DNA from: Tetrahymena thermophila SB210
Lineage: Eukaryota > Ciliophora > Oligohymenophorea > Hymenostomatida > Tetrahymenidae
DNA: 64,000 nt
Direction: 5' to 3'
NCBI RefSeq assembly: GCF_000189635.1
Contig: NW_002475923.1
Coordinates: forward strand, 310,001 to 374,000
The translations under genes were made by a program, and so were the position numbers. The notes below the pieces were generated by a model. It did not search any database, was not told the DNA's origin, and saw only the letters and a list, made by a program, of their open reading frames with translations. Of this stretch, positions 7,868 through 60,034 are shown piece after piece. Position 1 is the stretch's first letter; each line of letters opens with the position of its first letter.

Positions 7868-8918
7868 TTCTTGCTTAATTTTGAGAAATTCTAAAGATTT
7901 AATGTAATATATTTGATAATATTTTTTATTTTAACTTTCTTTTATTGTAAATTTCCTTAATCAATCAAGCAAGAATCTTTTAAATTTCATTAATAATTAA
8001 CAAAAATTCATTCATTTACTCATTATTTCTTTCTGAATTTATATTTTTTTATTCTTCCCTTATCAAATCTAATAAAATACATAAAATCTAGTTTGTATGT
8101 ATACTCAAAAACACTACTAAATATTTTCATAAAGAATTGAAAAATTATTTTTTTAAAATATTTCATTCATAGTTGTTGGAAACAATTTTTATTTAAGTAA
8201 TCCAATTTCAATTAATTCTCTCTTTTTTTATTACCTGCTTTTGGATAAATGTAAAAATATATGCAAAAATAGTTTTAAAGTTGCTAGACAGTTTATTTTT
8301 CTAATATAGATAAATAATGTTTTAAAATTAATCTATTTACATTAGAAATTATATATAAAAAATAAACAGTTTTTCAGTAATTTATGCAGGTCAACTTTGA
8401 AAGAGAATTAGTTTATAAATGTTAAAATATTTAAAAATATAAAGATAAATAAATGAATAGATTACTCAAATATGAACACATAAAACAAGAATGTGCATGA
8501 TATTGTCTTTAAAAAAAATATTGTATGTATACAGAGTATTAGATTGAAAGGGAGAAAAATGACAAGAAAAAGGGTACGGATTTTAAATCTAATTAGATTT
8601 TGAAAGTAGTTTCTATCTTTATAAATAAAATACAAAAATATTAGAAAACACTTATTTTTATAATTATTAATTCATTTAAGAGAAAGAAAGTCAAATATAT
8701 ACATAAATATATATATTAAAGCTCTACTACTTAGGCAAAATTCTAACTCCATTAGAATACATCTCTCTCAAAAATAAACCAATAGGATTATTTATAAAAC
8801 TTAAAAGAGAATACTATATAAATACAAGCATAGCATAGCTTAACTTAATAGGTTTTAGTGAACCTTAATAGCTGATTTCAATAAAACTTTTCTTTTATTT
8901 CAATTAATTGCTTTATAT
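7868..8918. other. divergent promoter region
   Basis: About 1 kb between the starts of NDUFS4 (-) and the Mot1-like gene (+), so it should contain both promoters. It is AT-rich with no recognised motif and no coding frame. Confidence 0.5.
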
Positions 8919-29853: not shown

Positions 29854-31328
<1,475 letters not shown>

Positions 31329-31764
31329 TAATATTAATAATTGTTTCTAAAAGTATAATACTATTGTTTTTTAATTGAATTAAACTTTTTTATTCAGACT
31401 CAGTATCTTTTAATTTAATAGCAATTAGAATATCTACTAATAAATACTGATTGTTTTATGTCTATGATTGCAAAAACTGTCTGGTGTAGTATAAAATTTA
31501 TTTAACTATTTTAAATTAAGTAAATATTATTAGTTTTTTTAAAAATTTAAGAGGATTTAAGGTATGTATGATATATTAAGAAAATATTATCTTTAAATGC
31601 TTATAAATAATCATAAAAATGTTAGCTTTAAAAATTTAACAATTATCTTAATAAAATTTAAAGTTTAGCTGCTAGCTAAACTTAGGTTTATGAATTAAAA
31701 ATCAATCAAGGTATTTATCAAATTTTTATTTCAAAAATGCTTGAAAATATAAATAATAAAAAAT
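31329..31764. other. intergenic spacer upstream of SIR2 gene
   Basis: AT-rich; lies between the SIR2 start (31328, minus strand) and the first tRNA-Phe. It should contain the SIR2 promoter. No further feature seen. Confidence 0.5.
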
Positions 31765-31837
31765 TGCCTTCACTCGGGATCGAACCGAGGACCGTAAGAT
31801 CTTCAGTCTTACGCTCTCCCAACTGAGCTATAAAGGC
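31765..31837 (-). tRNA. tRNA-Phe (GAA), copy 1
   Basis: A 73-base cloverleaf on the minus strand with a 7-bp acceptor pair (GCCTTTA with TGAAGGC), D-arm GCTC/GAGC, anticodon loop CTGAAGA giving anticodon GAA, and T-arm CTCGG-TTCGATC-CCGAG, discriminator A. No intron. A T run follows on the transcribed strand as a Pol III terminator. Identical to the five other copies in this window. Confidence 0.97.
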
Positions 31838-32924
31838 TTTATATTTTTTAGAATAAAATATTTTAGCATTTAGTATGTTTTAAATTTTTACCCAACTTTT
31901 CTTAATATTTTTTTAATTTTTTTAAAATTTAAAAAAGCTCAATAAGAATTTATTTACTTATGGTTTGAGATTTAATTTTCAGCTTTCTTTCTAAATAAAT
32001 TATATGAAATAAATAAATATATTGTTTTTTATGTTGAAATTTATAAAAGCACTTATTAAGTAAGCATTTTTCTAAGATAGTATTTTTTTAAATTAATTTC
32101 ATAAAATAGAAAGCCTAATAAAAAATTTTTTGTCTAAAGATATTAACTTTCTTAGTAACTTTAAACAAAGCCTAATAAAAAAAATCTTACTGTTTAAATA
32201 TTCTTATTAATTTACTATCTATTATGTTATAGAAATCAATATCATTTAAATATTTAAGATTAAATAAATGAACAACGATATTTATAAATTTGAAGAGATT
32301 ATTTATCAACAAAAACCTAATTAATACAAAAAATGTTTTAAGAGTATGAGTTAACTGAATTACAGCAAAATAAAATATTATATTTTGAATTAAATTAAAT
32401 AAAAGATTATAGAATGATTATTCTTTTTTTTGGTTTTAACTTATATTATGAATACTTTATATAAATAAAAATGATAATATTTATTCTAAGAGAAAATTAA
32501 TTTCATATAATAGAAAGCCTAATAAAAAATTTTTTGTCTAAAGTTATTAACTTTCTTAGTAACTTTAAACAAAGCCTAATAAAAAAAATCTTACTGTTTA
32601 AATATTCTTATTAATTTACTATCTATTATGTTATTGAAATCAATATAATTTAAATATTTAAGATTAAATAAATGAACAAGGATATTTATAAATTTGAAGA
32701 GATTATTTATCAACAAAAACCTAATTAATACAAAAAATGTTTTAAGAGTATGAGTTAACTGAATTACAGCAAAATAAAATATTATATTTTGAATTAAATT
32801 AAATAAAAGATTATAGAATGATTATTCTTTTTTTTTGGTTTTAACTTATATTATGAATACTTTATATAAATAAAAATGATAATATTTATTCTAAGAGAGT
32901 AAGTTATGAAGCTCAATAAAAAAC
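31838..32924. other. 3' spacer of surface-protein gene A
   Basis: AT-rich, non-coding, and mostly occupied by the two 404-bp repeat copies listed separately. The part next to the tRNA is shared with the spacer after tRNA copy 2. Confidence 0.6.
32096..32900. repeat. 404-bp tandem duplication
   Basis: Two adjacent near-identical copies with a period of 404 bases; for example AGAAAGCCTAATAAAAAATT begins at 32108 and again at 32512. Unit 2 of the large duplication has only one equivalent (about 39655-40050). The copies are non-coding and lie just downstream of gene A. Confidence 0.9.
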
Positions 32925-35900
32925 TCATTAGAAATTTTATAAGCTGATAATTTAATTACTTTAGTTATGATTTTAATTAATTGATCTGTTATTTTCATCT
33001 AAATTTTATTCTATTTAGCTCTTTTTTTTGCTATCTTCAAATTATTTTTATATTTTTTCAATAAAATGAGAGTAGAATAGTGGGAATACTAATAAACATA
33101 GTAAACCAAAGAAGGTTACTATAAGCCAACTAAGCGTATATTAGGAATCTTAATATACTACTAGTGGTGCACACTAATTTCCTTAGGTTATATACCCATC
33201 TAGGCATTCAATGCATTCAGAAATACTGCTTCCATAACAGCGCTTACCTAATTTTAGAAATAATTTTTAAATAAATAAAAAAAAAACTCAGTTTTAGATT
33301 TACAATTATTAACACAAGGGACACATTTCTATAGTGTCTAACTATAATATTATTAGTCAGTACAATCACACTGAGGTAATGTTAAGATTCCTATAGCTTT
33401 GCAGACTTTTATTTTATTAAAAATTGTAAAAAAATATTTTAAAATTTTTATTACGATCAACAGCTGGAGGTTTTGGGTCTATAGGTGGTACATAAGTACA
33501 ATCACTGGCTACTTTGCAAATAATACAGTCATTACTTGTAGGACCCTTGCAGGTTAAACATTTTGAATCACAGGCTTAGCATGATTAGCCATCTTTTGTC
33601 ATAAAAGTATTAGATGGGCAATCACATGATCCAGCACCACCAATCACTGAAAGTGCAAATCCTGGCTTACAAGATAAGCAATCAAGTCTACTTCCACCTT
33701 GGCATGTGGCACAACTATTAAAGCAACCTAATTTTATTAAAAAAAATAAAATATAATTAATATATTATTGATTTATCCTATTTTTTTATAAATACCTCTG
33801 CATTATGTATATGTAAAATCTTCATAGGTTCCATTTTGGCACTTGCATGTATAATTGCTAGTACCTGGTACAAGAACTTTAACTCTATATCCTGAACACT
33901 ATGTACAATTGCTTGAAGTATTGGCACATTATGAGCAAATTGAATCACACTTAGCACAGTAATTAGGGGCTATCAACGTAGCATACATCCCGCTAGGGCA
34001 TTAATCACAAGCAGGTAGATTTGTCCTCTAACCTTAACAAGCTATACATTGATTAGCATTATTAGCACATCCAGAGCAGATAGGGTTACAACTAGGGCAT
34101 TAAACTTAAGTTGGATAATTATCAAATGTTCCAAAAGGGCATGTACAAGAAGGTGGATTCACTCTATTTTGTGCACATTGTATACATCCTGAAGAGTTAC
34201 ATGAGTTGCATCTGCTATCGCATGGAAGGCATTACTATTAACCGGCAACCTCATAAAAATTTTGAGGACACACGCAAGTGTTAGTATTAGGATCTAAGAC
34301 TCTGTTTGAGTTACATGTCAAACACGTAGTTGACAAACCACTGCACGTTTTACAATTACTATCACATGGTTGGCAATCAGTATCTAGTAATTATAAAAAT
34401 TAAATTAAAATAATTAATAATGTATTATAAATTTTTACTTCCTGTATCATAAAATCCTGGTTAGCAGTCGCAATTTGGAGGATTAGATAGCCTGTTTTAG
34501 CCTTAACAAGTTAAGCAATTTAGAGCTGAACCACTGCAAGTACTGCATTTATATCCACAACTTGAGCAATTTCTTTAGTTTCCACTATACTTTCCAGGAG
34601 GACATGTTGAACAGCTAGGAGGGCCTGTTCTATCTCCGCTACAAGTTGTGCATGCAGTTGCATTAGTGCATGTTGCACATTAAAAGCTGCAAGCTGGGCA
34701 TATAGCTAAACCTGAATCATATGTGCCTGTTGGGCAATCACAGTTATTAGTAAATATATTCTTTGTCCTGTTTGGCTTGCAAACTATGCAATTTTAATTT
34801 GAAGGACCATTACAAGTAGTACAAAAGCTACTGCAAGCAATACAATCAAGACTCACACCTAAATATATTTAATTATATTTTTTAACATTCTTAATATTCT
34901 TAATGCTTTAGTTTAATTAGAATTAACTTTTTAATTTAAATTTAATTTCAAATCAATAAAATAATTTTGTTAAATTACCATCATCATAATAACCATCTTT
35001 GCAGATGCATGCAGGAGGCTGTTAAATAAAAAAGAAAGAAATAAATAAATTATAAATTAAAATTATAATATAATTTTTTACATTTATTCTATTTGAACCA
35101 TTACAAGCAATACACTAATATGGCTAAACGCCTGTACATCCATTACATCTAGGATTACAGTTTTGACAAGTGTTATTAACATCTACTTAACCAGGAGGAC
35201 ATATACAATTTGATGGATTTGCTGGATCTTAAACTCTACCTGCTTAACATGCACTGCAAATAGTCGGGTCAAGTATTGAACATCTAGCACATTTAGGAGA
35301 ACATCCTTTGTCTGTATCAGAAGGACAGTTATTTGTTCCATCATCAACAGTTCCAGGTGGACATTAGCAATCTGGACCTTATCTTCTACCTAAACAATTT
35401 CCTTGGCAATTATTGGCAGAAGTAACACAAGAGGCACAACCAATTTTACAGCTAGGGCATATGGTGCTTTGATAATCTTCATAGGTACCTGGAGGGCAAG
35501 TACAACCTGCTGATAAAACTCTATTTCCTTTGCATTTAGTACAGCTTGTTGCAGTTCCTGTACAATATTGGCATTTAAAATCGCATTCTATTTTGTGAAA
35601 AAAGTAATTCTATCATTTTATGAATATTAATTAAAATAATGATTACACCAGCAAGCATAAGAAGTAGGAATGCTATAATACCCAGGAGGAACAGGATCAC
35701 ATAAACAATAAAACTTAACACAAGGTTTGACTAATGCAAAAGATTGAATGCCAAACTAACTAGTTTGTGTATTACACCATGAAGAATATAAAAACGAAAA
35801 GGTGGATTTTGTTGTATCTATACCTTGGTAAGTTAGTACTCTTCTAATATTATTTTAAGATGCTGTCTAATTAAAAATATTAATTACAGGCATGTAAATT

Positions 35901-38423
35901 GTTTATGGAGGAACTTTTCCTGCTGGTCCAGTATACACACAACTTCTTGAGGAAGGGCAAGCTCTATTTGAATAAATTTGACTTTCGTCAGTAAGCATAA
36001 AATTTTTCAAGATATTATAAACTGGGATGCTTGGATTCATGGCAATGTAGAAAATATCAATTCTTTGAATAGGTATTCCTTTATAGGCTTTAACACTCAA
36101 CTGAAATTTATCTACATCAATAGATAATGTTTTTATTTCAAAAGAATGTCCTGTACCAGGAGGTATTAGGATACCAGTATACCCAGCAGTAACTTAAGGA
36201 ACAAACTTCTAACGGGTATTAAATGAGATTATTGTGGAAACCCATTAATCAGAAGCAGCAACATTTGCTAAATTTGGAAAAGCTGCACTAGTAAAACTGA
36301 ATTATCCTATTTCAATTTCAGGATCAATTGATGCAATGTAAAAAGGTTAAGAGTTATAAATTTTTCCACTCCCTAAACCGCGCTACATTTATATTGTAAA
36401 TCCAGTAGTAGACACAGAGTTGTAGCTTAATTAAAAGCTTTATAGTGTTGAACCTAAATCATAATCAAGTGTACTCATAGATAAAAATATTTAGGGTACT
36501 ATTGGTAAAGGCGGATTAAACGTAATAGAAACGGAATCTATATTCTAAGTATCTGGATTAGGTATAGGGACAGTTAAAACTCTAGTAGTTCCACTAATAA
36601 CTAGAGGATTTAAGTCAATACCTTTTAGTTAAAATTTCAAATAGAATTAAAATACTAATTAGATTTTTTTGAAAATTATTTACTATAGTCACATTATTAT
36701 TGTATTTAAGCAAAAGTATTTAAACAAGGTGTGCATTCTTGATAAGGTTAAGTATGAACAGTATTAGCATCAGCCTAAATATTTTATTAAAATCATTTAG
36801 TATCATAATATTTATTTTTTTTAACTTTATTCTAAATATATATTTTTATTTAAGCGATTTAATTACTTATTATAGGTAGAATGAAAATTAAATATTTTAT
36901 AAAATAATTACTTTTGGGCAGTAATCTGTGCTCGGCCAGCAAATTCCATTAGCCAAAACATATCCACTTTTACAATAAATACATTTTTGATCACTTAAAT
37001 ATTTAGAAGATTGGAGAATGCAGTTTGACATACAAAAGGTGAATTATCCAGGGTCATTTAAGTATTACCTAAAGTATGAACCTTAGTATACACGAAAATT
37101 TCTCATTGAATAAGAACCTGAGTAGTTTATACCGGGATTATTTAATGCATAAATTGCAGGTACTTTTGAAGGCCAAGTAGCACTTATATAACCAACAGCT
37201 TATTGCATACCGTTTATGTATATTCTTACAAATATTTTTGAAGCTCCTGGGAATTAGCAAATATTAATAACAGCTTCATGACCAGCCCCACCTCCATTAA
37301 TAGTTGTTATGGGTGGAGAAGTATAACATGAAGAAACGCTAATACATATTATAATTGAGTAACCGCCACCAGCAGCTTAATAAGCTATAGTTAAAATTAG
37401 ATTAGCTTAGTTATCTGATATTAAAATATTATTGAAGCTAGCTGGATTTCCATTGATTGTCATCCAATAAGAAAATGTTTCTTCATTATATTGTATATTA
37501 GTAGCAATTAAAGCTGTACTGCCTTAATTAAATGTAAGGGCTTCATATGTTCCAATAGAAACCCAAGCTGGATCCAAAATAGGTTCTGGATCTCTAGTTG
37601 TTCCTAACATCATATCTGGTAAATTAAATTATGTATCAGAAACATATTAAGGTGATATAGTATTTGGAGCCATTAAAGTATATTGAGCAATTAGATTTAA
37701 ATCAGAATGACGAAGTTCAAGTAAGAATTAAGGATTTGTTGTATCTAAATCATAATTTGCAGATACTTAAATTGAATACATAGGCGAACAAGAAGGGAAA
37801 TAAGCTGGAGTAGCATCGAAATATAAACCTAAATTAGGAAAGACTCCAAAGTTTGTTGGAATATTTGCTGTAAATGATCCTTAATAAGCTAATTAAGAAG
37901 TAGAGTCGATAGGATTAATAGCAATTTTAAATATTTAAGTATTGAAATTTATAGAAAACGCATAAAAACTCCACTAACCCATTAATGATGAAAAATTTGG
38001 AACCACAACAGGAGTTGCTTAGTTATAATTAGCTTGCAGTTGATTTTAACCATTATTATTAAAGAAAAAAGCCAACAATCTTCTTGTATTATCTCCATTT
38101 AATTCAGATTCACCGTTCATTGGCAATGTTACTCCATTTGTATTCGTAGAAAGATATATCAAAGTTTGCCACTAATTAGTTAAATCTGGATTCCCTGTTG
38201 GTTTCCACCATCCTGATATTGTTAATTTTTAAGAAGTTGAAAGTACATCTGCTCCCATATCCTAGATTTTCTTTAAGTTATAACTAAAAGTTTATGAATT
38301 TGTGCAGGGTGATTGGTATTATCCATTCATTAATCCAAAATTATTACATGGGTAATCACAACGGATTTATTTCATAATTATACATGAAAAAACCCCTAAG
38401 ACAATAAAAAATTATGAAAGCAT
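32925..38423 (-). CDS. lectin-like, cysteine-rich type I membrane protein A, 1,609 aa
   Basis: Ten exons on the minus strand: 36912-38423, 36684-36774, 35647-36621, 35082-35587, 34979-35018, 34439-34858, 33796-34383, 33455-33727, 33304-33405 and 32925-33247; all joins are in frame. A signal peptide is visible (MLSQFFIVLGVFSCIIM). Residues ~25-490 resemble one or two LamG/ConA-like folds (LTISGWWKPTG; TFSYWMTINGNPASF). Residues ~630-740 resemble an H-type lectin fold. Residues ~850-1530 are furin/EGF-like Cys-rich repeats of the CxxC...C type (for example CKTCSGLSTTCLTC). One membrane helix follows (LSWLIVTFFGLLCLLVFPLF), then a ~48-residue Gln/Asn-rich cytosolic tail. It is presumably on the cell surface or in food-vacuole membranes. 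Ligand unknown; domain assignments for the lectin parts are tentative. Confidence 0.85.
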
Positions 38424-39312
38424 GAGTGATAATATTAATCTTAATATCAAAACCTTCTTTTTTGCTTATCTTGTAAATATTTTATGAAGCGCTTTCAGAA
38501 TTTTTCTTTCTTCAATTAATCAAATATGAGAATTAGCTGTTTTTCCTTAATATAAATCTTTTGATTTTTTATTATCTGCTAATATCTACAAAAGCTATTA
38601 ATTAGTTAACATACTTTAATTAAAAAGTGAGAGGGCTATCTAAAAAAAAAAAAAATAAGGTTGAAAATTAATTATTTGAAGTTTTAATATATTAATAACT
38701 AATAATTACATATGTTCAAAGTATTATACCCATCAATTTATTCAAAAAATTTTATTAATTAAGTGTATGACATATATATATATATAATTTAACCATTCAA
38801 TTTATAAATAAATATTATATACATTTATTTCTAAATAATATTCATGGTTAATAAATCAATTAATTGTAAAATTTTATCAAAATTTCTAATTGAATATTTT
38901 AGTTTACATGAACAAATTTAAATTAATACTAACAAATTTTTAATAAAGGATACCTAATCAAATAAATTCTTTATATCATTTATTTTTGACTCAAATTAAT
39001 ATTCTTAAAAAATTAATATTAAAATATTCTATTTATTAATTTTTTATTTTCAAAAATGTGTAGCTACACTAATTTTTTTAAATTTTCATCCTTCAGTATA
39101 ATTCAAATTGCATTGAAGTTTATTTTGGTAATAAATAAATAAATATATAAATAAAAAATTGCTATCACTCTTTCAGTATTGAACAAATTATTTTAAGATC
39201 TTCAGTCTATGCTCTCCAAACTAAACTATAAAGGTATTTAATAATTTTTTATTTTAAAAATGATACCTAATCAATATTTTTAAATTTAAACTAAATAAGT
39301 AAATAAAAAAAA
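38424..39312. other. 5' spacer of gene A
   Basis: Should hold the promoter of surface-protein gene A. It contains the decayed tRNA listed separately and a TA-repeat near 38771-38787 that is also present in unit 2. Otherwise AT-rich spacer. Confidence 0.55.
39160..39235 (-). pseudogene. decayed tRNA-Phe, unit 1
   Basis: The order of tRNA-Phe elements is recognisable on the minus strand. The anticodon-arm segment (AAGATCTTCAGTCT on the plus strand) is intact, but the T-arm, D-arm and acceptor carry many changes (for example TTCAGTATTGAAC in place of the T-arm). It should not fold or be charged. It lies about 80 bases from an intact copy. Confidence 0.85.
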
Positions 39313-39385
39313 TGCCTTCACTCGGGATCGAACCGAGGACCGTAAGATCTTCAGTCTTACGCTCTCCCAACTGAGCTATAAAGGC
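39313..39385 (-). tRNA. tRNA-Phe (GAA), copy 2
   Basis: Identical 73-base sequence to copy 1, with anticodon GAA and intact A and B boxes, on the minus strand with a following T run. It marks the boundary between the two duplication units. Confidence 0.97.
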
Positions 39386-40079
39386 TTTATATTTTTTAGA
39401 ATAAAATATTTTAGCATTTAGTATGTTTTTAAATTTTTACCCAAATTTTCTTAATATTTTTTAATTTCTTTAAAATTTAAAAAAGCTAAATAAAAATTTT
39501 TTGGTTTGAGTTTTAATTTTAAGCTTTCTTTCTTTCTTTCTAATTAATATAAAATTAAATAAATTAATATTAAGTTTTTTAGGTTGAAATTTATAAAAGC
39601 ACTTATTAAGTAAGCATTTTTCTAAGATAGTATTTTTTTAAATTAATTTGATTTTATAGAAAGCCTAATAAAAAGTTTTTTTGTCTAAAGTTATTAATTT
39701 ACTTAGTAACTTTAAACAAAACCTAATAAAAAAAATCTTACTGTCTAAATATTCTTATTAATTTACTATCTATTATGTTATTGAAATCAATATCATTTAA
39801 ATATTTAAGATTAAATAAATGAACAAGGATGTTTTTAAATTTGAAGTAAGTGATTATTTATCAACAAAAACCTAAATAAAACAAAAAAATGTTTTAAGAG
39901 TATGAGTAAACTGAATTACAGCAAAATAAAATATTATATTTTGAATTAAAGTAAATTAAATAAAAGATAATTGAATTATTATTCTATTTTTTTGGTTTTA
40001 ACTTATATTATGAATACTTTATATAAACAAAAATGATATTTATTTCTAAGAGAGTAAGCTATGCAGCTCAACGTATAGC
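39386..40079. other. 3' spacer of gene B
   Basis: AT-rich spacer equivalent to 31838-32924, but carrying the 404-bp segment only once (about 39655-40050). Non-coding. Confidence 0.6.
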
Positions 40080-43000
40080 TCATTAAAAATTTTATAAGCT
40101 GATAATTTAATTATTTTAGTTATGATTTTATTGAATTGACCTGTTATTTTTATCTAAATTTTATTCTATTTAGCTCTTTTTTTTGCTTTCTTCAAATTAT
40201 TTTTATATTTTTTCAATAAAATGAGAATAAAATAGTGGGAATACTAACAAACATAGTAAACCAAAAAAGATTCCTATAAGCCAACTTAGTGTATATTAGG
40301 AATCTTAATATACTACTGTTAGTACACACTAATTTCCTAAGGTTATATACCCATCTAGACATTCAACACATTCTGAAATACTGCTTCCATAACAGCGCTT
40401 ACCTAATTTAAGAAATAATTTTTTAATAAGTAAATATAAAACTCTGTTTAAATTTACAATTATTAACACAAGGGACACATTTCTATAGTGCCTAACTATA
40501 ATACTATTAGTCAGTGCAATCACACTAAGGTAATGTTAAGATTCCAAGAGCCTTGCATACTTTTATTATATTAAAATTGTAAATATTTTTTTAAAAAATT
40601 TTATTACAATCAACAGCTGGAGGTTTTGGGTTATCTGGTTGGGTGGAAGTACAATCACTAGCTACTTTGCAAGTAATACAGTCATTACTTGTAGGACCCT
40701 TGCAGGTTAAACATTTTGAATCGCAGGCTTAACATGATTAACCATCTTTTGTCATAAAAGTATTAGAAGGGCAATCACATGATCCAGCACCACCAATCAC
40801 TGAAAGAACAAATCCTGGTTTACATTATAAGCAATCAAGTCTACTTCCTCCTTGACATTTGACACAACTATTAAAGCAACCTAATTTTATTAATATAAAT
40901 AAAATATAATATTTTATTTATCCTATTTTTATAAAAATACCTCTGCATTATGTATATGTAAAATCTTCATAGGTTCCATCTTGACACTTGCATGTATAAT
41001 TGCTAGTACCTGGAACAAGAACTTTAACTCTATATCCAGAACACTATGTACAGTTGTTTGAAGTATTGGTACACTATGAGCAAATTGAATCACACTTAGC
41101 ACAGTAATTAGGGGCTATTAATGTAGCATACATACCGTTAGGGCATTAATCACAAGCAGGTAGATTTGTTCTCTAACCTTAACAAGCTATACATTGATTT
41201 GCATTATTAGCACATCCAGAGCAGATAGGGTTACAACTAGGACATTAAACTTAAGTAGGATAATTATCAAATGTTCCAAAAGGACATGTACAAGAAGGTG
41301 GATTCACTCTATTTTGTGCACATTGTATACATCCTGAAGAGTTACATGAGTTGCATCTGCTATCACATTAAAGGCATTGCTATTAGCCGGCAACCTCGTA
41401 AAAATTTTGAGGACACACGCAAGTGTTAGTATTAGGATCTAAGACTCTGCTTGAGTTACATGTCAAGCACGTAGTTGATAAACCACTACATGTTTTACAA
41501 TTACTATCACATGGTTGGCAATCAGCATCTAGTAATTTCAAAATTAAATTAAAATAATGAATAATATTTAATAAATTTTACTTCCTGAATCATAAAATCC
41601 TGGCTAACAATCGCAACTAGGAGGATTAGAAAGCCTGTTTTAACCTTAACAGGTTAAGCAATTTAGAGCTGAACCACTGCAAGTACTGCATTTATATCCA
41701 CAACTTGAACAATTTGTTTAGTTTCCACTGTATTTTCCAGGAGGACATGTTGAGCAACTAGGAGGGCCTGATCTATCTCCACTACAAGTGGTGCATGTAG
41801 TTGCATTTGTGCATGTTGCACATTAAAAACTGCAAGTTGGGCATATTGCTAAACCTGAATCATATGTGCCTGTTGGACAATCACAGTTATTAGTAAATAT
41901 ATTCTTTGTCCTGTTTGGTTTGCATACTATGCAATTTTAATTTGAAGGACCATTGCAAGTAGTACAAAAGTTACTGCAAGCAATACAATCTAGACTCACA
42001 CCTAAATTATATTTATTTTTATTTTTATTGCTCAATTTAAAAATTCATAAAATGAAAATAAAGAAGGATATTTGAAAGCATTAGAAAGAATAATGGATAT
42101 CTAATATTGTTATCAAACATTTATTTAACTAAAATTCTCTATTTAATTTAAATATAATTTAAAATCAATAAAATAATTTTATCAAATTACCATCATCATA
42201 ATAGCCATCTTTGCAGATGCATGCAGGAGGCTGTTAAATAAATAAATAAACAAATAAATAAATTTTAAATAAAAATCAGCATGTAATTTTTACATTTATT
42301 CTATTTGAACCATTACAAGCAACACACTAATATGGCTAAACACCTGTGCATCCATTACATCTAGGATTACAGTTTTGACAAGTGTTATTAACATCTACTT
42401 AACCAAGAGGACATATACAATTCGATGGATTTTTAGGATCTTAGACTCTACCTGCTTAACATGCACTGCATTTAGTTGGATCTAGTATTGAACATCTAGC
42501 ACATTTAGGATCGCATCCTTTGTCTGTATCAGAAGGACAGTTATTTGTTCCATCATCAACAGTTCCAGGTGGACATTAACAATCTGGACCCTATCTTTTA
42601 CCTAAACAATTTCCTTGGCAATTATTGGCAGAAGTAACACAAGAGGCACAACCAACTTTACAGCTAGGGCATATAGTGCTTTGAAAATATTCATAGGTAC
42701 CTGGAGGGCAAGTACAACCTGTTGATAAAACTCTATTTCCTTTGCATTTAGTACAGCTTGTCGCAGTTCCTGTACAATATTGGCATTTAAAATCACATTC
42801 TATTTTGTTAAAAAAAATAATGTCATGATTTTATCAATATTAATTAAAATAATGATTACACCAGCAAGCAAAAGAAGAAGGAATGCTAAAATACCCAGGA
42901 GGAACAGGATCACATAAGCAATAAAACTTAACACATGGTTTGACTAATGCAAAAGATTGAATGCCAAACTAACTAGTTTGTGTATCACACCAAGTATAAT

Positions 43001-45635
43001 ATGAAAATGAAAAAGTAGATTTTGTTGTATCTATACCTTGGTAATGTAGCCTTCTTCTAATATTATTTTAAGATGCTGCCTAATTAAAAATATTAATTAC
43101 AGGCATGTAAATTGTTTATGGTGGAACTTTTCCTGCTGGTCCAGTATACACACAACTTCTTGAGGAAGGGCAAACTTTATTTGAAAATATTTAACTTTCG
43201 TCAGTAAGCATAAAATTTTTCAAGATATTATAAACTGGGATGCTTGGATTCATGGCAATATAGAAAATATCAATCCTTTGAATGGGTACCCCTTTATAGG
43301 CTTTAACACTCAACTGAAATTTATCTACATCAATAGATTATGTTTTTATTTCAAAAGAATGTCCTGTAGCAGCAGGTATTAGAATACCAACATATCCTGC
43401 AGTAACTTAAGGAACAAACTTCTAACGGGTATTAAATTAGATAATAGTCGAAACCCATTAATCAGAAGTTGCAACATTTACTAAATTTGGAAAAGCTACA
43501 CTATCAAAACTGAATTATCCTATTTCAATGTCAGGATCAATTGATGCAATATAAAAAGGTTAGGATTCATAAATTATTCCACTCCCTAAACCGCGCTACA
43601 TTTGTATTTTAAATCCAGTAGTAGATACAGAGTTGTAGCTTAATTAAAAGCTTTAAAGTGTATGACCTAAATCATAATCAAGTGTACTCATACATAAAAA
43701 TATTTAGGGTACTATTGGCAAAGGCGGATTAAATGTAATAGAAACTGAATCAAGATTCTAAAAATCTGGATACGGTACATAAACATTAAAAGATCTTGTA
43801 GTTCCACTGATAACTAGAGGATTTAAGTCAATACCTTTTAGTTAAAATTTCAAATAGAATTAAAATAATAATTAGATTATTTTAAAAATTATTTACTATA
43901 GTCGCATTATTATTGAATTTAAGCAAAAGTATTTAGACAAGGTGTACATTCTTGATAGGGTTAAGTATGAACAGTATTTGCATCAGCCTAAATATTTTTA
44001 TTAAAATCATTAATTAATTATAAAATTATTTATTTTTTTTAACTTTATTCTAAATATTTTTTGTATAAGTGATTTAATAATTTTTTTATCATTATAAAAT
44101 TAAACATTTTATAAAATAATTACTTTTGGGCAGTAATCTGTGCTTGGCCAGCAAATTCCATTAGCTAAAACATATCCACTTTTACAATAAATACATTTTT
44201 GATCACTTAAATATTTAGAAGATTGGAGAATGCAGTTCGACTGACAAAAGGTGAATTATCCAGGGTCATTTAAGTATTACCTAAAGTATGAACCTTAGTA
44301 TATACGAAAATTTCTCATTGAATAAGAACCTGCGTAGTTTACACTAGGATTATTTAATGCATATACTGATGGTACTTTTGAAGGCCAAGTAGTACTTATA
44401 TAACCAACAGCTTATTGAATACCGTTTATGTATATTCTTACAAATATTTTTGAAGCTCCTGGGAATTAGCAAATATTAATAACAGCTTCATGACCAGCTC
44501 CACCTCCATTAATAGTTGCTATGGGTGGAGAAGTATAACATGAAGAAACGCTAATACATATTATAATCGAGTAACCGCCACCAGCAGCTTAATAAGCTAT
44601 AGTTAAAATTAGATTAGCTTAGTTATCTGATATTAAAATATTATTGAAGCTAGCTGGATTTCCATTAATTGTCATCCAATAAGAAAATGTTTCTTCATTA
44701 TATTGTATATTAGTAGCAATTAAAGCTGTACTGCCTTAATTAAATGTAAGGGCTTCATATGTTCCAATAGAAACCCAAGCTGGATCCAAAATAGGTTCTG
44801 GATCTCTAGTTGTTCCTAACATCATATCTGGTAGATTAAATTAAGTATCAGAAACATATTAAGGTGATATAGTATTTGGAGCCATTAAATTATATTGAGC
44901 AATTAGATTTAAATCGGAATGACGAAGTTCAAGTAAGAATTAAGGATTTGTTGTATCTAAATCATAATTTGCAGATACTTAAATTGAATACATAGGCGAA
45001 CAAGAAGGGAAATAAGCTGGAGTAGCATCGAAATATAAACCTAAATTAGGAAAGACTCCAAAGTTTGTTGGAATATTTGCTGTAAATGATCCTTAATAAG
45101 CTAATTAAGAAGTAGAGTCGATAGGATTAATAGCAATTTTAAATATTTAAGTATTGAAATTTATAGAAAACGCATAAAAACTCCACTAACCCATAAATGA
45201 TGAAAAATTTGGAACCACAACAGGAGTTGCTTAGTTATAATTAGCTTACAGTTGATTTTAACCATTATTATTAAAGAAAAAAGCCAACAATCTTCTTGTA
45301 TTATCTCCATTTAATTCAGATTCACCGTTCATTGGCAATGTTACTCCATTTGTATTCGTAGAAAGATATATCAAAGTTTGCCACTAATTAGTTAAATCTG
45401 GATTCCCTGTTGGTTTCCACCATCCTGATATTGTTAATTTTTAAGAAGTTGAAAGTACATCTGCTCCCATATCCTAGGTTTTCTTTAAGTTATAACTATA
45501 AGTTTATGAATTTGTGCAGGGTGATTGGTATTATCCATTTATTAATCCAAAATTATTACATGGGTAATCACAACGGATTTATTTCATAATTATACATGAA
45601 AAAACCCCTAAGACAATAAAAAATTATGAAAGCAT
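40080..45635 (-). CDS. lectin-like, cysteine-rich type I membrane protein B, 1,609 aa
   Basis: Paralogue of gene A. Exons: 44124-45635, 43897-43987, 42860-43834, 42294-42799, 42191-42230, 41582-42001, 40941-41528, 40608-40880, 40458-40559 and 40080-40402. Every exon has exactly the same length as in gene A, so the total is again 1,609 codons and no frame is broken. The signal peptide, LamG-like regions, H-lectin-like region, Cys-rich repeats, membrane helix and tail are all kept. Changes from A are mostly single substitutions. They are very few in exon 1 and clearly more common in the middle and 3' exons and in introns; for example, the exon 8 segment before the intron at 40607 differs at several codons. 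Both copies look functional. Confidence 0.85.
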
Positions 45636-46515
45636 GAGTGATAATATTAATCTTTATATCAAAACCTTCTTTTTTGCTTATCTTGTAAATATTTTATGAA
45701 GCGCTTTCAGATTTTTTCTTTCTTCAATTAATCAAATATAAGAATTAGCTGTTTTTCCTGGATATAAATCTTTTTATTTTTTATTATCTGCTAATATCTA
45801 CAAAAGCAATTAAATAGTTAGCTTACTTTAATTAATAAGTGAGTGGGCTATCTAAAAATAAAAAAAATAAGGTTGAAAATTAATTATTTGAAGTTTTATT
45901 ATATTAATAACTAATAATTACATATGTTAAAAGTATTATATCCATCAATTTATTCAAACAATTTTATTAATTAAGTGTATGACATATATATATATATAAT
46001 GTAACCATTCAATTTATAAATAAATATTATATACATTTATTTCTAAATGATATTCATGGTTAATAAATCAATTAATTGTAAAATTTTATCAAAATTTCTA
46101 ATTGAATATTTTAGTTTACATGAACAAATTTAAATTAATACTAACAAATTTTTAATAAAATATACCTAATCAAATAAATTCTTTATATCATTTATTTTTA
46201 ACTCAAATTAAATTTTTTAAAAATTAATATTAAAATATTTTATTTATTCATTTTTTATTTTCAAAAATGTTTAGCTACACTAATTTTTTTAAATTTTCAT
46301 CCTTCAATATAATTCAAATTGCATTGAAGTTTATTTTGGTAATAAATAAATAAAAAATTGCTATCACTCTTTCAGTAATGAACTAATTATTTTAAGATCA
46401 TCAGTCTATGCTCTCTCTCCCAATTAAACTATAAAGGTATTTAATAATTTTTTATTTTAAAAATGATACCTAATCAATATTTTTAAATTTAAACTAAATA
46501 AGTAAATAAAAAAAA
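45636..46515. other. 5' spacer of gene B
   Basis: Nearly the same sequence as 38424-39312, including the TA repeat (about 45983-45999) and a decayed tRNA. Presumed promoter of gene B. Confidence 0.55.
46359..46438 (-). pseudogene. decayed tRNA-Phe, unit 2
   Basis: Counterpart of the relic at 39160-39235, at the same distance from its gene and from the next intact tRNA. It shares the degenerate T-arm and has an additional CTCT insertion in the D-arm region, so it too should be non-functional. Confidence 0.85.
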
Positions 46516-46588
46516 TGCCTTCACTCGGGATCGAACCGAGGACCGTAAGATCTTCAGTCTTACGCTCTCCCAACTGAGCTATAAAGGC
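46516..46588 (-). tRNA. tRNA-Phe (GAA), copy 3
   Basis: Same 73-base sequence and anticodon GAA. It begins what would be a third duplication unit, but the following sequence leads to another tRNA rather than a protein gene. It forms the left arm of the inverted repeat with copy 5. Confidence 0.97.
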
Positions 46589-46666
46589 TTTATATTATAA
46601 ATTTTTATTTTAAAAATGACACCTAAATGAAATATTTTAAAATTAACAAATAAATAAATAAAAAAA

Positions 46667-46739
46667 TGCCTTCACTCGGGATCGAACCGAGGACCGTAAG
46701 ATCTTCAGTCTTACGCTCTCCCAACTGAGCTATAAAGGC
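46667..46739 (-). tRNA. tRNA-Phe (GAA), copy 4
   Basis: Identical to the other copies; minus strand, 78 bases from copy 3, inside the loop of the inverted repeat. An A run on the plus strand supplies the Pol III terminator. Confidence 0.97.
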
Positions 46740-47071
46740 TTTATATTTTTATAGAATTTAAAAATTTAGTTTTTATTTTTTATGTTTCTTTTTAATTTAA
46801 ATTTAATCAATAAATATTTTTAAAATAAAATTTAATACTTAAATATATTTATTCAGCTAAATTATGAAATGAATTTTAACTTGAATTTTAAAATATTATT
46901 TAATTTTAATTAAACTGATTAAAATATGTTTATTTATCTCTCTTCTTAGATTTGATTATAGATATTTTCAAAAATCTTTTTTAATCTCTATTTTTTTTTT
47001 ATTTATTTATTTGTTAATTTTAAAATATTTCATTTAGGTGTCATTTTTAAAATAAAAATTTATAATATAAA

Positions 47072-47144
47072 GCCTTTATAGCTCAGTTGGGAGAGCGTAA
47101 GACTGAAGATCTTACGGTCCTCGGTTCGATCCCGAGTGAAGGCA
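47072..47144 (+). tRNA. tRNA-Phe (GAA), copy 5
   Basis: Identical sequence on the plus strand, anticodon GAA, followed by ATTTTTTTT terminator. Its 5' flank mirrors that of copy 3. Confidence 0.97.
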
Positions 47145-47231
47145 TTTTTTTTGTTCAATTATTTAATTATATGGCTATTAAAGTATGTTTCTTTTCTGAG
47201 TCTTTTATTAAACAAATTTTTATAATATAAA

Positions 47232-47304
47232 GCCTTTATAGCTCAGTTGGGAGAGCGTAAGACTGAAGATCTTACGGTCCTCGGTTCGATCCCGAGTGAA
47301 GGCA
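47232..47304 (+). tRNA. tRNA-Phe (GAA), copy 6
   Basis: Identical sequence on the plus strand, followed by a T run. It shares the immediate upstream TTTATAATATAAA with copy 5 but diverges further upstream, so the duplicated segment was little longer than the gene. Confidence 0.97.
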
Positions 47305-49692
47305 TTTTTTTATAAATAAATTTATTCATATTTTTAGTTGAAAATATCAAAAATAAATTCATAAATTATTTCTTTTTTATTAACATTAATTTTTTTGATA
47401 ATAGATAAATATTTAAAAATAAATATAAATTTAGGATTCTATAAAATAAAAGATTGGTTTTTAAATAATATTTATTTATAGTTTATTATTAATTTATTCT
47501 TGATTACATTTAATTTATAAGAAAAGTCGATTTTTTTAGAATATTCATAAATAGAAAAAAATGAACTTAATGATAATAATATAGCTAATTTAATTTTCAT
47601 TTTTACTTATAAAATTATTTTTATAAAATTTCTTTTAAATATTGAATTGTTTATAAAATTTTTATTTCTAAAAATTAAATAATTTAAGATAGCTTTTAAA
47701 ATATAAAATCAATAAAAAAGATTTATTTATCCATTTACTTAAAAAGAATAGCACAAGATATTTAAATAAAATGAGCTATTTGTTAATATAAAAAAGAGCA
47801 AATTCTTTTTATTTGATTTATGATAAATTCTAAATTTAAAAATAAACTGAAATATATTATTTTTATAGTAAATAGTTACCAAATAATTGAAAAATCCTAA
47901 TGAATCTGGTTATTCAAACGATTTTAATCTTAAATGTAATATTAAGAAAATAAAAATATTTATCACCTTTTTAAAAATATGAAAATATTTCTATTTAAAT
48001 ATTAAATAGGATAATTTAATTTTAAAAATAAGCCAATATAAAAATTTAAATAAGAAATTATTTTCTATTCTTTAGAACACAAAATTCTTTTTTTATTAAC
48101 TTTTAAATTTTAAAACAAATAATCTAAAATGATTTATGAATAGGTAATTTACTTTATTTAATCCATTTCATTTTAAATTTTCTAAAATAGAAAAACACAA
48201 ATTAATTTATTTCTAAGATATGGAAGGGTCTTTTTATGGATAATCTTATTTTAAAAATATAAATAAATTATTACTTATAGCAGATAAAAATCAAATAGCT
48301 ACAAATACTGTTTTTTATTGTAAAATTAATTACTTAGCTATGAAATAATTTATTAAATTTTTATTTATAATTCACCAATGATTTTAAATATATTCTTCTA
48401 AAACATTTTTTCTCTCTTTTATTTCTTAAAGCGAATATTTTTTTCATATTCTAAAATTAGTCAAATTTTTATTTCAAAATTAATTTAATTTTATAAAAAA
48501 TTAACTATTGAACAAAACCAGTATATTTTAAGCAATTAATAAAACGAAAATGAAAAATAAAATTGATAATTTTTAATTTTAAATTATCAATCAGAAGACT
48601 GACTGATTTGAATATTGAATTTGTTCAAAAATATTTTGTAAATATGAGGGTAAAATTTTTTAAGAATTGATCAGACTATAAAATTAAGAAATTAAATTGA
48701 TAAGAAATAAAATACATCAGAATTTTATATAAGAAATAAGTATATATTTATTTTGATTAAAGGATATTAGCACCTGTTTTTATTAAATCAAATATAAAAT
48801 TGCTGATATATGAAAAGTATACCAAATGAACTGAAGGTAAACTAGAGAACATGATTAATTATAATCAAGCGATGTAGGTATTATGGAAAGCTCAATAGGA
48901 CATAGAAATAGAAATTAAGTATCAGAAAAAATTAGACTAATTAAGAAACCAAAGAAATGAATAGATACTAATAAATATTTAATTAGAATCAGTCAGACTT
49001 TTTTTTTTTGATTGGGTATTTAATGAATTTAAAATATTGATGGCCAAGTAAAAGAAATATGTGACAAATATATGGAATTTAATCAGAGTTTTATCTTTAT
49101 ATTGTAAATTCTTTCTTTTTTTTAATCATCTACCGACGAATTTCAATATGTTTGTATGACTGCATAACCAAAGAAAAGAAAAAAGTCAATTTTTGTTTTG
49201 TAAATGAGCAAAATAATCCTACAGACAATATTAACTAAATTCACATAAATTTTTTGAAAACAAATTCATCAAATAAATAAAAAAAAGCAAAACAATACTT
49301 TTAGAAAAAAGTGTATTAATATTTTAGATTTTGTAAAATTTGCTCACTCATCATTCATTCATTTATTTATTAATTAGTTAATTAATTAATAAATTAATTT
49401 GCTTATTTATTAAATTGTTAATTGATAAAATCATAAAAAAAGGTTTGATATCAATCGATTGATAAAACAATAATCAGAAAAATTTACTTATAAATTAAAT
49501 TTTGCAAGAAAGTTAGATAGTTAGTTAATTAGTTTTCAATATATACAAATAATTAACTATTAGCTGAAGTAGGATTCTAATAAATCCATTTATAGAAGTA
49601 TCTATCATTTTCTCCAAAAATAAATACTTAAAGGACTTATTTCTTTTTCTTCAGTTAGGGTTTTTATTAATTTCGATAGTTATATTGCAGAA
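47305..49692. other. intergenic region, 2.4 kb
   Basis: The longest gene-free stretch in the window, very AT-rich. One open frame of 102 codons (48851-49159) is listed separately; nothing else recognised. A tract of TTAATTAATT-type repeats lies near 49370-49400. Confidence 0.5.
48851..49159 (+). CDS. possible small ORF, 102 aa, unrecognised
   Basis: In the ciliate code an ATG at 48851 opens 102 codons to TGA at 49157. Residues 1 to about 45 are hydrophilic and helix-prone (KYQKKLDQLRNQRNEQ) with Gln encoded by TAA and TAG, like real genes here. After about residue 48 the translation crosses a T11 run and becomes Phe-rich. It could therefore be one real exon followed by intron, or chance. No homologue or partner exon was recognised. 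Confidence 0.28.
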
Positions 49693-51861
49693 ATGACAAA
49701 CAATTCCATTAAGGAAGATTTGCTTAGCAATAGCTTCGCGACAACAACTTCATCAAATTCCTCTCCGGATTATCATGCCTCGTAATGCAATGCTTAGTCA
49801 AATAATGGTGCAACCTCTTCATTTGAAAGTTAAATCTCAGATTCAAGAGACGAAAATAATAGCAGCAAGTAACTAAGTTTAAGTGAGTTATTCTAAAAAT
49901 CGGAGCATTAGCTTGGAGATACAAACTTCAAATTCATTAGATATAACTCTAGAGTGACAACTTATTCTATAATAATTTCTTCAATCCTAACTCTTTTTGT
50001 CTTTGGCTACATGATTCTCTTTCGCGAATAAATGTTTGTCTTTTCCTTAGAATTTATTGAAAGAATGTAGTCCAACCAGAACTTTTTTTTAGTTTCTTTC
50101 ATGAACTTTATTTCTCTTTGCGTCAGCCCAAAGCCTGTAATATCTATGTTGGTAATATTTTTTGCTTTATCGACTTAAAAGCTTAAGATATTAACATTTC
50201 TTTTATACTATGGATTTTTAACTTACACCTGCGTGCTGCTAAAATCTCTTTTTGGGGATCCAAGACCATATTGGATCGAGTAACATTATTCTTAGAATGT
50301 TTAGCAAAATTATGTAAATGAAAGTAGGATACTTAGTGCTTAAAATAATAATTCCAGTGACATTTATTTAAATCAACTGCTGATATAACACTATAATAAC
50401 AAATCTTTGAATTACTTTGAAGACAATGATTATAATCTTGAGGAAAATTTTTAAAGGCTATCAAATAAGTAGTAATTGAATTTAATTAAATTGTCAGAAA
50501 CTGATAAGTTAAGTAATATTTTAATTTCTGAAACAAGCTAAGAACCTGAAATTAAAAAGTAAGCAAATACCCAAGTCTATTTAAATCAAAGTCAAATAAT
50601 AAATAATTCAAATAAATTCCAAGATAATTAAAATATGTCATATTTCTCGAATTCTACTATTCCATATAATGAGAGCCATCACAATAAATTATCGAATGAT
50701 TTAAATAATCAAAGAAATAGTTAAGATAACTTAAATATTGTTGATCAGGATGAATATAAAAAAGGATATAATAAAACTTAACAAAACATTTAGTAACAAA
50801 AAGAAATTTCAGAATAAAAAGAAAGTTAACAAATAAACTAATTAAATTCTATTTAAAATGATATCAATCCTAGTGTTCTACCCTTAGACTGGAAATGCTA
50901 TTAAGAGTATGGAAATCCTTCAGGACATGCCTTTTTGGGAGTTCCCTTATATGAATTTATTGTAAGAGATTATATTCTGCGTAAAATAGGCAAAGATTAG
51001 CGCTTTATTAGGGTTTTAGTAACAGTATGTGCTGTCATATTAGTTAATCTAATTTTTATCTCTAGATTATATTTGGGAATGCATTCTTTAAATCAAGTAA
51101 TATTTGGCTGTGTATTGGGTATCTATGCAACTGTATTCTATAGATTATTTTTTGAAAGAAGAATTTCATCTATGCTCTATTAATATGTTTAATTAAAGAG
51201 ATCAAATGCTATTAAATAGATTTCGTATGTTATCTTATTTACTTCCGCCATATTCTCTCTTCCTATAATTATATATACTATTCAAGAGTTGATTCTTAGT
51301 CATTCTTAAAACCTTTAAAATTAATTAGTAGAATGGGAAAATATTATTTAACAAAAATGTAGTAATTTTACTAAGATGCAAAGCTTCCACCATAAATGCT
51401 TTATCGACTCAAGCGTTGTAGCAATAGGTTTTTCTATTGTTCTAGGATTTTTATTAACATCAAGAGAAAGATTTTTAAAAGGCCAATACAAGGAAATCCC
51501 TGGCATCAAAAACTTTATTTACAGAATATCTATAATACTCCTCTGCTGCTCAACAATAGCAATATTTTACTATGTGCTACCTAGTTTCAATAACCCCTAT
51601 TTAAAATACATCTACCTCTTTTTAGGTATATTTTTAACAGGATTTTTATTAGTGGCACTTGTTCCAAAGCTCTTTGAAAAATATCATCTAATTACATTTA
51701 TATTTCCACTCTTACAAGAGTAACTTAATGATATCAGCTAAAATGACAACATTAAATAATAAATTAAAAATGAATCATTTAACTCATACCCAAGCTTCTC
51801 TTCTTTCTAAACAGAAGCTTCATATAGTAATACTTTAACTAAAGATCTACAAAAACTTTGA
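49693..51861 (+). CDS. PAP2-superfamily (glucose-6-phosphatase-like) membrane phosphatase, 722 aa
   Basis: A single intronless frame of 723 codons with many TAA/TAG Gln codons. The three motifs of the PAP2/G6Pase superfamily are present in order: KSLFGDPRP (from about residue 183), GNPSGHAF (about 405) and SRLYLGMHSLNQ (about 457-468), which together supply the Lys-Arg, His and Arg-His catalytic groups. The residue after the final His motif is Asn-Gln instead of the common Asp, as in glucose-6-phosphatases, which have His-Gln there. Multiple membrane helices surround the motifs. About 200 Asn/Gln/Ser-rich residues (roughly 200-395) are inserted between motifs 1 and 2. The N-terminal ~70 residues are Ser/Asn-rich and cytosolic. 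Likely substrates are phospho-lipids or sugar phosphates; the sequence does not decide. Confidence 0.85.
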
Positions 51862-58120: not shown

Positions 58121-60034
58121 TCAATTTTTTTATTTTAGTCTTTCAAAATTGCAATATATAGGAGAAGATGGCCCATGAACAAACTTTTAGAGTCTGTCCA
58201 TTTAATAATCAGGATTAGTGAGAGTAACTTCAAAATCTCTTAATATAACACTAAAAACAATTTTAATGGTAAGTAAACCTAAATGTTGTCCTATGCAATT
58301 TCTTCTTCCAGCTGAAAAGGGTAGATAAGCATAAGAATTGATTTAATTTTTTTCAAGCCATCTATCAGGATTGAATTCTTCTGGGTTTTTAAATATCTTT
58401 GAATTATAAAAATTTGTTAAAATTGCTAAATTAACCATGGAACCTTTTTTTATTTCTATGTCTTTAATCTTATGATCTTAAGTTGCCTTTATTTTTATAA
58501 AAGCTATTAAAAAACTAACAAATAGCATTAAGCTTTATTTTTACTATTCTATACATAAGGGTAGAGGTAGGTCCATAAAACCTAAATATTTCTTTTATGA
58601 AGCAATCCAAATAATTTAGTTATGAAATCTTTTCGTAAGTAATTGGTTGATCATGAGAGAAATGCTAATTTATTTCTTTTCTTAGCTTTTCTCCAATCTA
58701 AGGTTAATTAGAGAATATTTTGATAAGTATTTTTTAAGTAAAATTAATATGAAGATTTAATAAAAATGAGCAAAATGTGTCTGAATGATAAATTACATGA
58801 GGATATTTACAATAAAAATAAAAGCAGAACCCCACCGTGTGACCTTTATTTAAAAATTATAAATCCAATTAATTAGAGAATATTTTTAGCATTTTTTTTT
58901 TATTAAAACTTATAAATTCTGAACAATGAATAATTAATACACACCAGTAGTTTCCATTCCAGCTAAATAAAAGGTCAAGTACTCTTCTAAAAGTTCTTCT
59001 GGTAATATTTTGTTTGACTTAGTTAGCTCTTCCTTTTCCTGTTTACTCATATCTGAGGATTTTTTATCTAATATATAACCATTTTTGATGATCTGATCGA
59101 TGATTGAATTTTCTGTATCTACTTAAAAATCTTCTTAGCTTTAAGATTATTTTTATTGTTAACTTTATTTATTTATCCTTGAGTACAAAGCATCAATTAG
59201 AATTTGTTTAATATTTTTTATGTCTTCATTAACTACTCTGTCAAATCTACACCAACCTTTATCAAATGTGTAAGTTCCTGTTAGAATATATCTGATTGTT
59301 CTCATTTAATTGCAAGTAGCTGTATTTAAATGATATAGGTTTTGGGGAATGGTTTTCTCTTTGTAACGTTAATTATTCATATTTATACCAAAAAACTATT
59401 ATGTGATAATATCTCCACTGATGTGTTAAGATAAATCAATCATATCAATTCTTTAAACTGTTTTTTTAACTAATGGACATTTTTATATAACCCAATTTTA
59501 AGTTATCTACTCAATCTTTGGCACCACTTGCTTCAAATTGTCAAAATGAAAAAGCTTAGAAAAAATATTTCGTTTTCTATTATGGGAAATTTCGTCAAAT
59601 AAAAATCCATTTCCTAATACTCTACTAAACATTTTCACTATGAAAGGACTTTTTTAGTAGCAGTTTAGAGAGTAAAATTCTTTTATCATTTCAGGATCTA
59701 TCAAGTAGAGAGCAATGTTTCCTCCTATTTATTTATATAGTTTTACTTCTTATATGTTCTTTTTTTCCACACTTATTAATTTACCTATGTTTATAGCTAA
59801 GGATTTAGCATCAGGATGCTCAATTCCTACTTACTTAAAGAACCTAAGAGAGTCACCATACTTTTTAAAATCTTTCTGTAAAATACCCCATAAACCTGAT
59901 ATAGGATAGTATTTTATGATTGATACACCTTATATTCTATACCTTATCAAGTTTGCTACAGGGTAAATTACCATTTTAAAAAATGATAAACACAAAATGA
60001 GAAAAAAAAGTATTTTAATTGCCACAAATATCAT
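58121..60034 (-). CDS. cytochrome P450, 551 aa
   Basis: Four exons on the minus strand: 58945-60034, 58797-58843, 58545-58697 and 58121-58486. An N-terminal membrane anchor is visible ([18 protein letters not shown]), so the enzyme should sit on the ER membrane facing the cytosol. The I-helix oxygen-activation motif is YLAGMETTG. The K-helix ExxR is in IKEIFRF, the PERF region reads PEEFNPDRW, and the heme-binding loop is [10 protein letters not shown] with Cys494 as the iron ligand. Length is normal for a microsomal P450. A Gln/Ser-rich insert of about 20 residues lies before the I-helix. It should carry out NADPH-reductase-dependent monooxygenation; the substrate cannot be deduced. A neighbouring reductase gene is not present. 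Confidence 0.93.

Follow-up and report, generated by a model that had tools for sequence, protein, structure and literature searches.

How does a tandem pair of long genes come to be nearly alike at one end and far more divergent along the rest? The question is raised by two adjacent genes, A and B, in a 64,000-base stretch of the Tetrahymena thermophila SB210 genome (assembly GCF_000189635.1, contig NW_002475923.1, positions 310,001 to 374,000). We refer to this whole stretch as the window and give coordinates within it. A and B encode putative surface receptor- or adhesin-like proteins. The original prediction, made from the sequence of this window, had noted their uneven divergence and offered two explanations, recent gene conversion of the 5' part or strong selection on the remainder. 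We find that the two units are joined by a phenylalanine tRNA (tRNA-Phe) gene with hybrid flanks and that silent divergence steps up near the end of exon 1. A two-step origin appears likely from these sequence patterns, in which unequal exchange between tRNA-Phe genes duplicated the unit and a later exchange re-homogenised its 5' part. The hybrid junction is the main addition to the original prediction; the mechanism itself is already known.

A hybrid tRNA gene joins the two units

ARAGORN located six tRNA-Phe genes in the window, all identical letter for letter (Table 1). Unit A lies between the genes that we call T3 and T2, and unit B between T2 and T1. We compared the flanks of these genes over 60 bases against 100 shuffles. 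The left flanks of T2 and T1 matched at 60 of 60 positions (z 16.7) and the right flanks of T3 and T2 at 58 of 59 (z 18.8). Over the same 60 bases, the left flanks of T3 and T2 (z 0.9) and the right flanks of T1 and T2 (z -0.4) agreed no better than shuffles. To the right of the tRNA, agreement between T2 and T1 extends for 8 bases, and then homology stops. T2 joins the left flank of T1 to the right flank of T3, as in a tandem duplicate formed by exchange between tRNA genes. Because its flanks match those of both outer tRNAs, T2 is the hybrid expected from unequal exchange between T1 and T3, and since the tRNA genes are identical the exchange point is not resolvable within the 73 bases.

Searches beyond the window used the assembly of 101,022,631 bases in 445 contigs, presumably macronuclear. 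In keeping with T. thermophila or a near relative as the probable source, a telomerase RNA-binding-domain exon of this assembly agreed with a deposited telomerase chain (best 2r4g) in 101 of 102 aligned residues, the sole mismatch being the first of these, where the piece has its edge. Across the genome a 33-base tRNA-Phe pattern matched at least 24 times, including six times in the window. Among the 276 tRNA-Phe pairs, the best 60-base flanks were the left flanks of T2 and T1 (60), the right flanks of T1 and the gene at 47,072 (60) and the right flanks of T3 and T2 (58); next came the left flanks of T0 with T1 and with T2, at 51 each. Near-identical flanks over 60 bases were confined to this cluster among the 24 tRNA-Phe genes. 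When flanks were extended to 100 bases, a small number of pairs from elsewhere in the genome stood slightly above the shuffle maximum of 24.5 (the best at 32 and 29.5). This recount of flanks refuted the idea that T2 is unique as a hybrid tRNA, as T1 is mixed too. As we read the sequence, the mixed flank of T1 reflects an inverted duplication of the spacer between T1 and T0. The T1 flanks add to the view that exchange at these tRNA genes may have happened repeatedly.

The segment from 46516 to 47304 holds two minus-strand and two plus-strand tRNA-Phe genes facing each other. About 80 bases inside each unit we also read a decayed tRNA-Phe-like relic, which ARAGORN does not call; the relics suggest an older tRNA-Phe array.

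Silent divergence steps up near the end of exon 1

Exon 1 differs between A and B at 1.9% of nucleotides, and exons 2-10 differ at 2.5-9.9%. Over the full coding sequence synonymous divergence (dS) was 0.149 and non-synonymous divergence (dN) 0.032. Sliding windows lying inside codons 1-400 gave dS values of 0.00-0.05, and those that began at codon 451 or beyond gave 0.08-0.34. Divided by region, dS was 0.025 for codons 1-420, 0.192 for 421-550, 0.188 for 551-840, 0.205 for 841-1540 and 0.215 for 1541-1608. Uniform synonymous divergence was not seen, and a changepoint analysis placed the step.

A first set held 3644 of 3767 silent sites, the misaligned part of the 3' spacer being excluded. It gave a changepoint at 36,893 (2-log-likelihood interval 36,879-37,164), separating 3.2% from 12.2% divergence with a log-likelihood gain of 50.1; the gain never exceeded 8.9 across 500 permutations. 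When restricted to synonymous coding sites, the analysis gave a changepoint at 37,158 (gain 24.2; permutation maximum 8.7). The first set included sites to the left of T3, outside the unit, of which 32% differ, and the badly aligned intron 5. With both removed, the changepoint fell at 36,954 (36,879-37,200) with a gain of 37.8, for which no permutations were run, and silent divergence rose from 41 of 1330 sites to 227 of 2110 (about 3.1% to 10.8%). The inner edge of the low-divergence tract lies between about codon 408 and 33 bases into intron 1, and outward the tract extends to the end of the homology between the units, just past the tRNA. At fourfold sites of the coding sequence, codons 1-400 show 4 differences among 162 sites, and exons 2-10 show 56 among 385 (Fisher p 8e-6).

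Non-coding sites behave similarly. In the 5' spacer, 33 of the 876 sites that align carry a difference (3.8%). The 3' spacer differs at 47 of 562 (p 3.5e-4 against the 5' spacer) and introns 2-9 at 72 of 519 (p 1.6e-11 against the 5' spacer), a count inflated by the poorly aligned intron 5; without that intron it is 44 of 399, with no significance test. Intron 1 differs at 20 of 131 sites. Silent divergence drops locally at coding and non-coding sites alike, as in a gene-converted pair. The original prediction had described exon 1 and the adjoining spacer as almost identical. This holds for at least the first 420 or so of the 504 codons of exon 1, and the spacer is better called similar than identical. 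The greater number of differences described for the middle and 3' exons was borne out, with silent divergence of about 11-12% there compared with about 3% in the 5' part.

Conversion, constraint and repeated exchange

Selection leaves a different signature from the one observed. The ratio dN/dS was 0.32 for codons 1-420, 0.19 for 421-550, 0.33 for 551-840, 0.16 for 841-1540 and 0.20 for 1541-1608, and exon by exon it ranged from 0 in the short exons 2 and 5 to 0.37 in exon 3. The silent rate steps while this ratio does not, so the proposed strong selection on the remainder is unsupported. With dN/dS similar along the gene by domain, including the 0.16 of the cysteine-rich part, we ruled out stronger selection on the middle and 3' parts. 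The other half of that proposal, recent conversion of the 5' part, gains support from the step at fourfold sites and from the low divergence of the 5' spacer relative to the 3' spacer and introns. The 5' similarity could also have arisen with no conversion, through stronger constraint or a lower mutation rate at that end. The introns and 3' spacer do differ in rate, and one adjacent pair of H-type lectin units on contig C10 also shows a step (gain 19.8, all sites). Against this, the fourfold sites change within a single gene, the non-coding spacer is low as well and dN/dS is not reduced in the 5' part; we regard such an account as improbable. The C10 pair is more even than the pair studied here (6.6% over most of its length and 13.7% at the end), and we rejected uneven divergence as a general trait. 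That the assembly has placed two alleles in tandem is scarcely plausible, given outer flanks that differ, a distinct middle junction, a synonymous divergence of about 0.2 over most of the gene and a source that is probably the inbred laboratory species.

The two-step origin would start from one gene, encoding a lectin-like type I membrane protein, that lay between two tRNA-Phe genes of the same orientation. Unequal homologous exchange between these would have duplicated the unit of 7.2-7.5 kilobases and left a hybrid tRNA-Phe in the middle. The flanks of T2 are hybrid, and the exchange is what we infer from them. The copies would then have drifted apart, still under purifying selection, until they differed by about 0.2 synonymous changes per site. 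A later exchange, by gene conversion or by unequal crossing over with subsequent loss, would have re-homogenised some 2.2-2.5 kilobases, a tract that begins at the upstream tRNA-Phe gene and takes in exon 1 wholly or for the most part. If the units were identical at first, the 3% tract is the younger because they reached about 11% silent divergence elsewhere. These data fit later homogenisation of the 5' part by conversion or by repeated unequal exchange, and a tRNA gene may possibly have had a role in starting the second exchange. The mosaic might reflect expansion to at least three units and loss by repeated unequal crossing over, rather than conversion between two existing units. That the cluster underwent more than a single exchange is suggested by the hybrid tRNA together with the mixed flanks of T1, yet nothing in the two units distinguishes this history, and exons 1 and 3 each matched two places (at least two) in the assembly. 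We consider it possible, if somewhat unlikely. Conversion and a three-unit stage with later loss would each suffice, and two copies cannot distinguish them.

Several observations weigh against the two-step origin or complicate it. Silent rates vary without conversion, and the values for intron 1, for introns 2-9 without intron 5 and for the 3' spacer misfit a strict two-rate picture. Over 150 bases the left flanks of T3 and T2 reach z 3.9 and the right flanks of T1 and T2 z 2.4, a weak signal in very AT-rich DNA. T1 likewise matches two partners at 60 of 60, T2 on its left and the inverted gene at 47,072 on its right, making two mixed genes of the 24; flanks in this cluster have therefore been reshuffled more than once. 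On the protein side, the LamG region scores 19.9-21.3 bits against a cut-off of 27.6.

Gene models and predicted proteins

Gene models were built with GT..AG introns of 20-399 bases, the exon lengths given in the original prediction and an open frame in translation table 6, in which TAA and TAG encode glutamine. With the standard code no frame of 100 amino acids overlapped 28-50 kilobases of the window, and with table 6 long frames opened. Both genes have an open frame of 1609 codons on the minus strand (Table 1). The search returned one solution for B and two for A that differ solely in the position of the 40-base exon 5, the first of which agrees with B. The ten equal exon lengths (1512, 91, 975, 506, 40, 420, 588, 273, 102 and 323 bases) were reproduced exactly, with unequal introns: introns 1-9 measure 137, 62, 59, 63, 120, 55, 68, 49 and 56 bases in A and 136, 62, 60, 63, 189, 53, 60, 48 and 55 in B. 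Equal exon lengths are not remarkable alone, because purifying selection at such divergence would yield them. The splice sites are predicted from the DNA, and both genes are probably functional.

Table 1. Features of the gene pair and its tRNA-Phe cluster (window coordinates; aa, amino acids)
Feature	Position	Strand	Basis or remark
tRNA-Phe (GAA) T3, outer boundary downstream of gene A	31765..31837	-	ARAGORN
tRNA-Phe (GAA) T2, hybrid junction between units	39313..39385	-	left flank 60/60 with T1, right flank 58/59 with T3
tRNA-Phe (GAA) T1, outer boundary upstream of gene B	46516..46588	-	ARAGORN
tRNA-Phe T0	46,667 (start)	-	ARAGORN
Two tRNA-Phe genes	47,072 and 47,232 (starts)	+	ARAGORN
Decayed tRNA-Phe-like relic, 5' spacer of A	39160..39234	-	read in sequence; no ARAGORN call
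Decayed tRNA-Phe-like relic, 5' spacer of B	46359..46437	-	read in sequence; no ARAGORN call
Candidate homogenised 5' tract, unit A (upstream tRNA-Phe, spacer, most or all of exon 1)	36893..39393	-	silent-divergence changepoint; inner edge 36,879-37,200
Matching tract, unit B	44105..46596	-	inner edge carried over from A via the 7212-base repeat offset
Gene A, 10 exons, 1609 aa	32925..38423	-	open table-6 frame, GT-AG introns; H_lectin E 4.6e-14
Gene A exons 1-5	38423-36912, 36774-36684, 36621-35647, 35587-35082, 35018-34979	-	
Gene A exons 6-10	34858-34439, 34383-33796, 33727-33455, 33405-33304, 33247-32925	-	
Gene B, 10 exons, lengths as A, 1609 aa	40080..45635	-	open table-6 frame; 99/1609 residues unlike A
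Gene B exons 1-5	45635-44124, 43987-43897, 43834-42860, 42799-42294, 42230-42191	-	
Gene B exons 6-10	42001-41582, 41528-40941, 40880-40608, 40559-40458, 40402-40080	-	

Further copies were sought nearby, and tblastn at E 0.01 gave no match elsewhere in the window or within 10 kilobases on each side of it. In the assembly the two places matched by exon 1 and by exon 3 were genes A and B; these numbers may be lower bounds, as the best candidates were scored and TAA and TAG were read as stops. Apart from A and B themselves, a DNA query taken from 33,000-34,400 matched a single 40-base piece, on contig C300 at 90%. The 3' spacer of A contains a tandem duplication of period 404 (32090..32897) whose 300-base copies are 98% alike, and this duplication has one matching place in B, at 73%.

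The predicted order of parts in the protein is an N-terminal hydrophobic stretch, a LamG/ConA-like region, an H-type lectin domain, cysteine-rich modules and one membrane helix. Pfam places H_lectin (PF09458) at residues 565-631 of A, with 52.7 bits for the whole protein and 66.0 and 65.3 bits for exon 3 of A and B, above the curated cut-off of 24 in both. Laminin_G_3 (PF13385) matched residues 61-171 of A below threshold (20.0, 19.9 and 21.3 bits) and did not reach its curated cut-off in A or B, whole or exon by exon; exon-wise scans of both proteins agreed with the whole-protein scan. Protein A has 137 cysteines, all kept in B, which has one extra at 582. They include 13 modules C-x2-C-x3-C-x2-C, with 10 of 12 spacings at 44-52 residues. 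No Pfam cysteine-rich model matched A at E 0.1, and no solved structure matched A at E 0.01. The Kyte-Doolittle average over 19 residues exceeded 1.6 only in peaks at residue 2 and residue 1541, the latter being the one C-terminal hydrophobic peak (1541-1559). The earlier description of a LamG, H-lectin and cysteine-rich membrane protein stands for all parts save LamG. A looks like a single-pass surface protein, for which we infer location and ligand from these features.

Nothing that we found supports the suggestion that the pair varies at the cell surface. One could picture an antigenic-variation pair in which conversion shuttles cassettes between the copies, and the surface-type architecture and tandem arrangement would suit it. 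The part that has been homogenised is, however, the N-terminal region, with purifying selection acting on the remainder; each gene has an open frame, and the searches made turned up no further copies. We regard this as highly improbable, and the pair shows no new kind of surface variation.

The wider family and neighbouring loci

H-lectin domains form a large family in this one ciliate: the genome has 57 matches, and many of these sit in tandem arrays on contigs C10, C116, C13, C23 and C130. Matches to A outside the window were 22-41% identical among the best 60 rows, from 30 of the 57 H-lectin places and the C10 stretches. We considered whether H-lectin arrays are generally bounded by tRNA genes and, on the evidence of the C10 arrays, rejected this, as no tRNA was found in seven stretches (five from C10 arrays and two flanking the window). 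As a control, the same option recovers the six tRNA genes in the window; the default option, too, found none in the seven. Within C10:223001-232000, at about positions 2162-8164 of that stretch, self-alignment offsets rise in 276-base steps, pointing to a probable long internal tandem repeat beside an H-lectin domain.

Around the pair, the outer neighbour of T3 is a minus-strand frame with SIR2 and zf-UBP domains (30018-31610). A PAP2-superfamily frame (49426-51861) and a cytochrome P450 frame (58121-60193) also lie near the pair.

Implications and comparison with known systems

As an example of a gene duplication with an exchange point inside a tRNA gene of 73 bases and partial homogenisation afterwards, the locus would be a clean one. 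For genes of this kind, a tree of exon 1 and a tree of the remaining sequence are expected to conflict, and the pair is usable to test the growth of ciliate surface-gene arrays. Very tentatively, identical tRNA genes might act as recurrent exchange points that built the pair and reshuffled the flanks of the cluster, with conversion outward from them keeping the promoter region and N-terminal exon alike as the lectin and cysteine-rich parts diverge; we hold this doubtful. If this is true, tRNA genes would determine which portion of a surface gene its duplicates keep in common.

A search of titles and the starts of abstracts found no paper naming this gene pair among the matches listed. Macronuclear variation among strains has been described, in a paper whose main text lacks the terms 'tandem' and 'gene conversion' (PMC10868616). 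Unequal crossing over and conversion are reported in Tetrahymena breakage-site repeats (PMC5182062), and neighbouring Tetrahymena tRNA genes are mostly for the same amino acid (PMC2888827). In yeast, rearrangement breakpoints and segmental duplications occur at tRNA genes (PMC2675101). As there, tRNA genes mark the ends of the rearrangement at this locus; unlike the yeast cases as presented in that source, hybrid flanks here place the exchange within one 73-base tRNA gene.

A and B resemble H-type lectin proteins (PF09458) in carrying the domain above its curated cut-off, and A differs from the plain H-lectin case in embedding it in a cysteine-rich, single-pass protein of 1609 residues. The growth-factor-receptor (GFR) cysteine-rich domain is among the top domains of species-specific Tetrahymena genes, where tandem duplication is also found (PMC6564038). 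The 13 cysteine modules of A are like those of the ciliate GFR genes by description, and unlike them A adds an H-lectin domain and a LamG-like region. The cysteine repeat modular proteins (CRMP) of Toxoplasma have multiple C-terminal membrane helices, and their complex includes the H-lectin protein Tg247195 (PMC9670195). We rejected membership of A in the CRMP family as that source describes it, since A has one C-terminal hydrophobic peak where CRMPs have several transmembrane helices; A shares with them a cysteine-rich ectodomain and, through Tg247195, the company of an H-type lectin.

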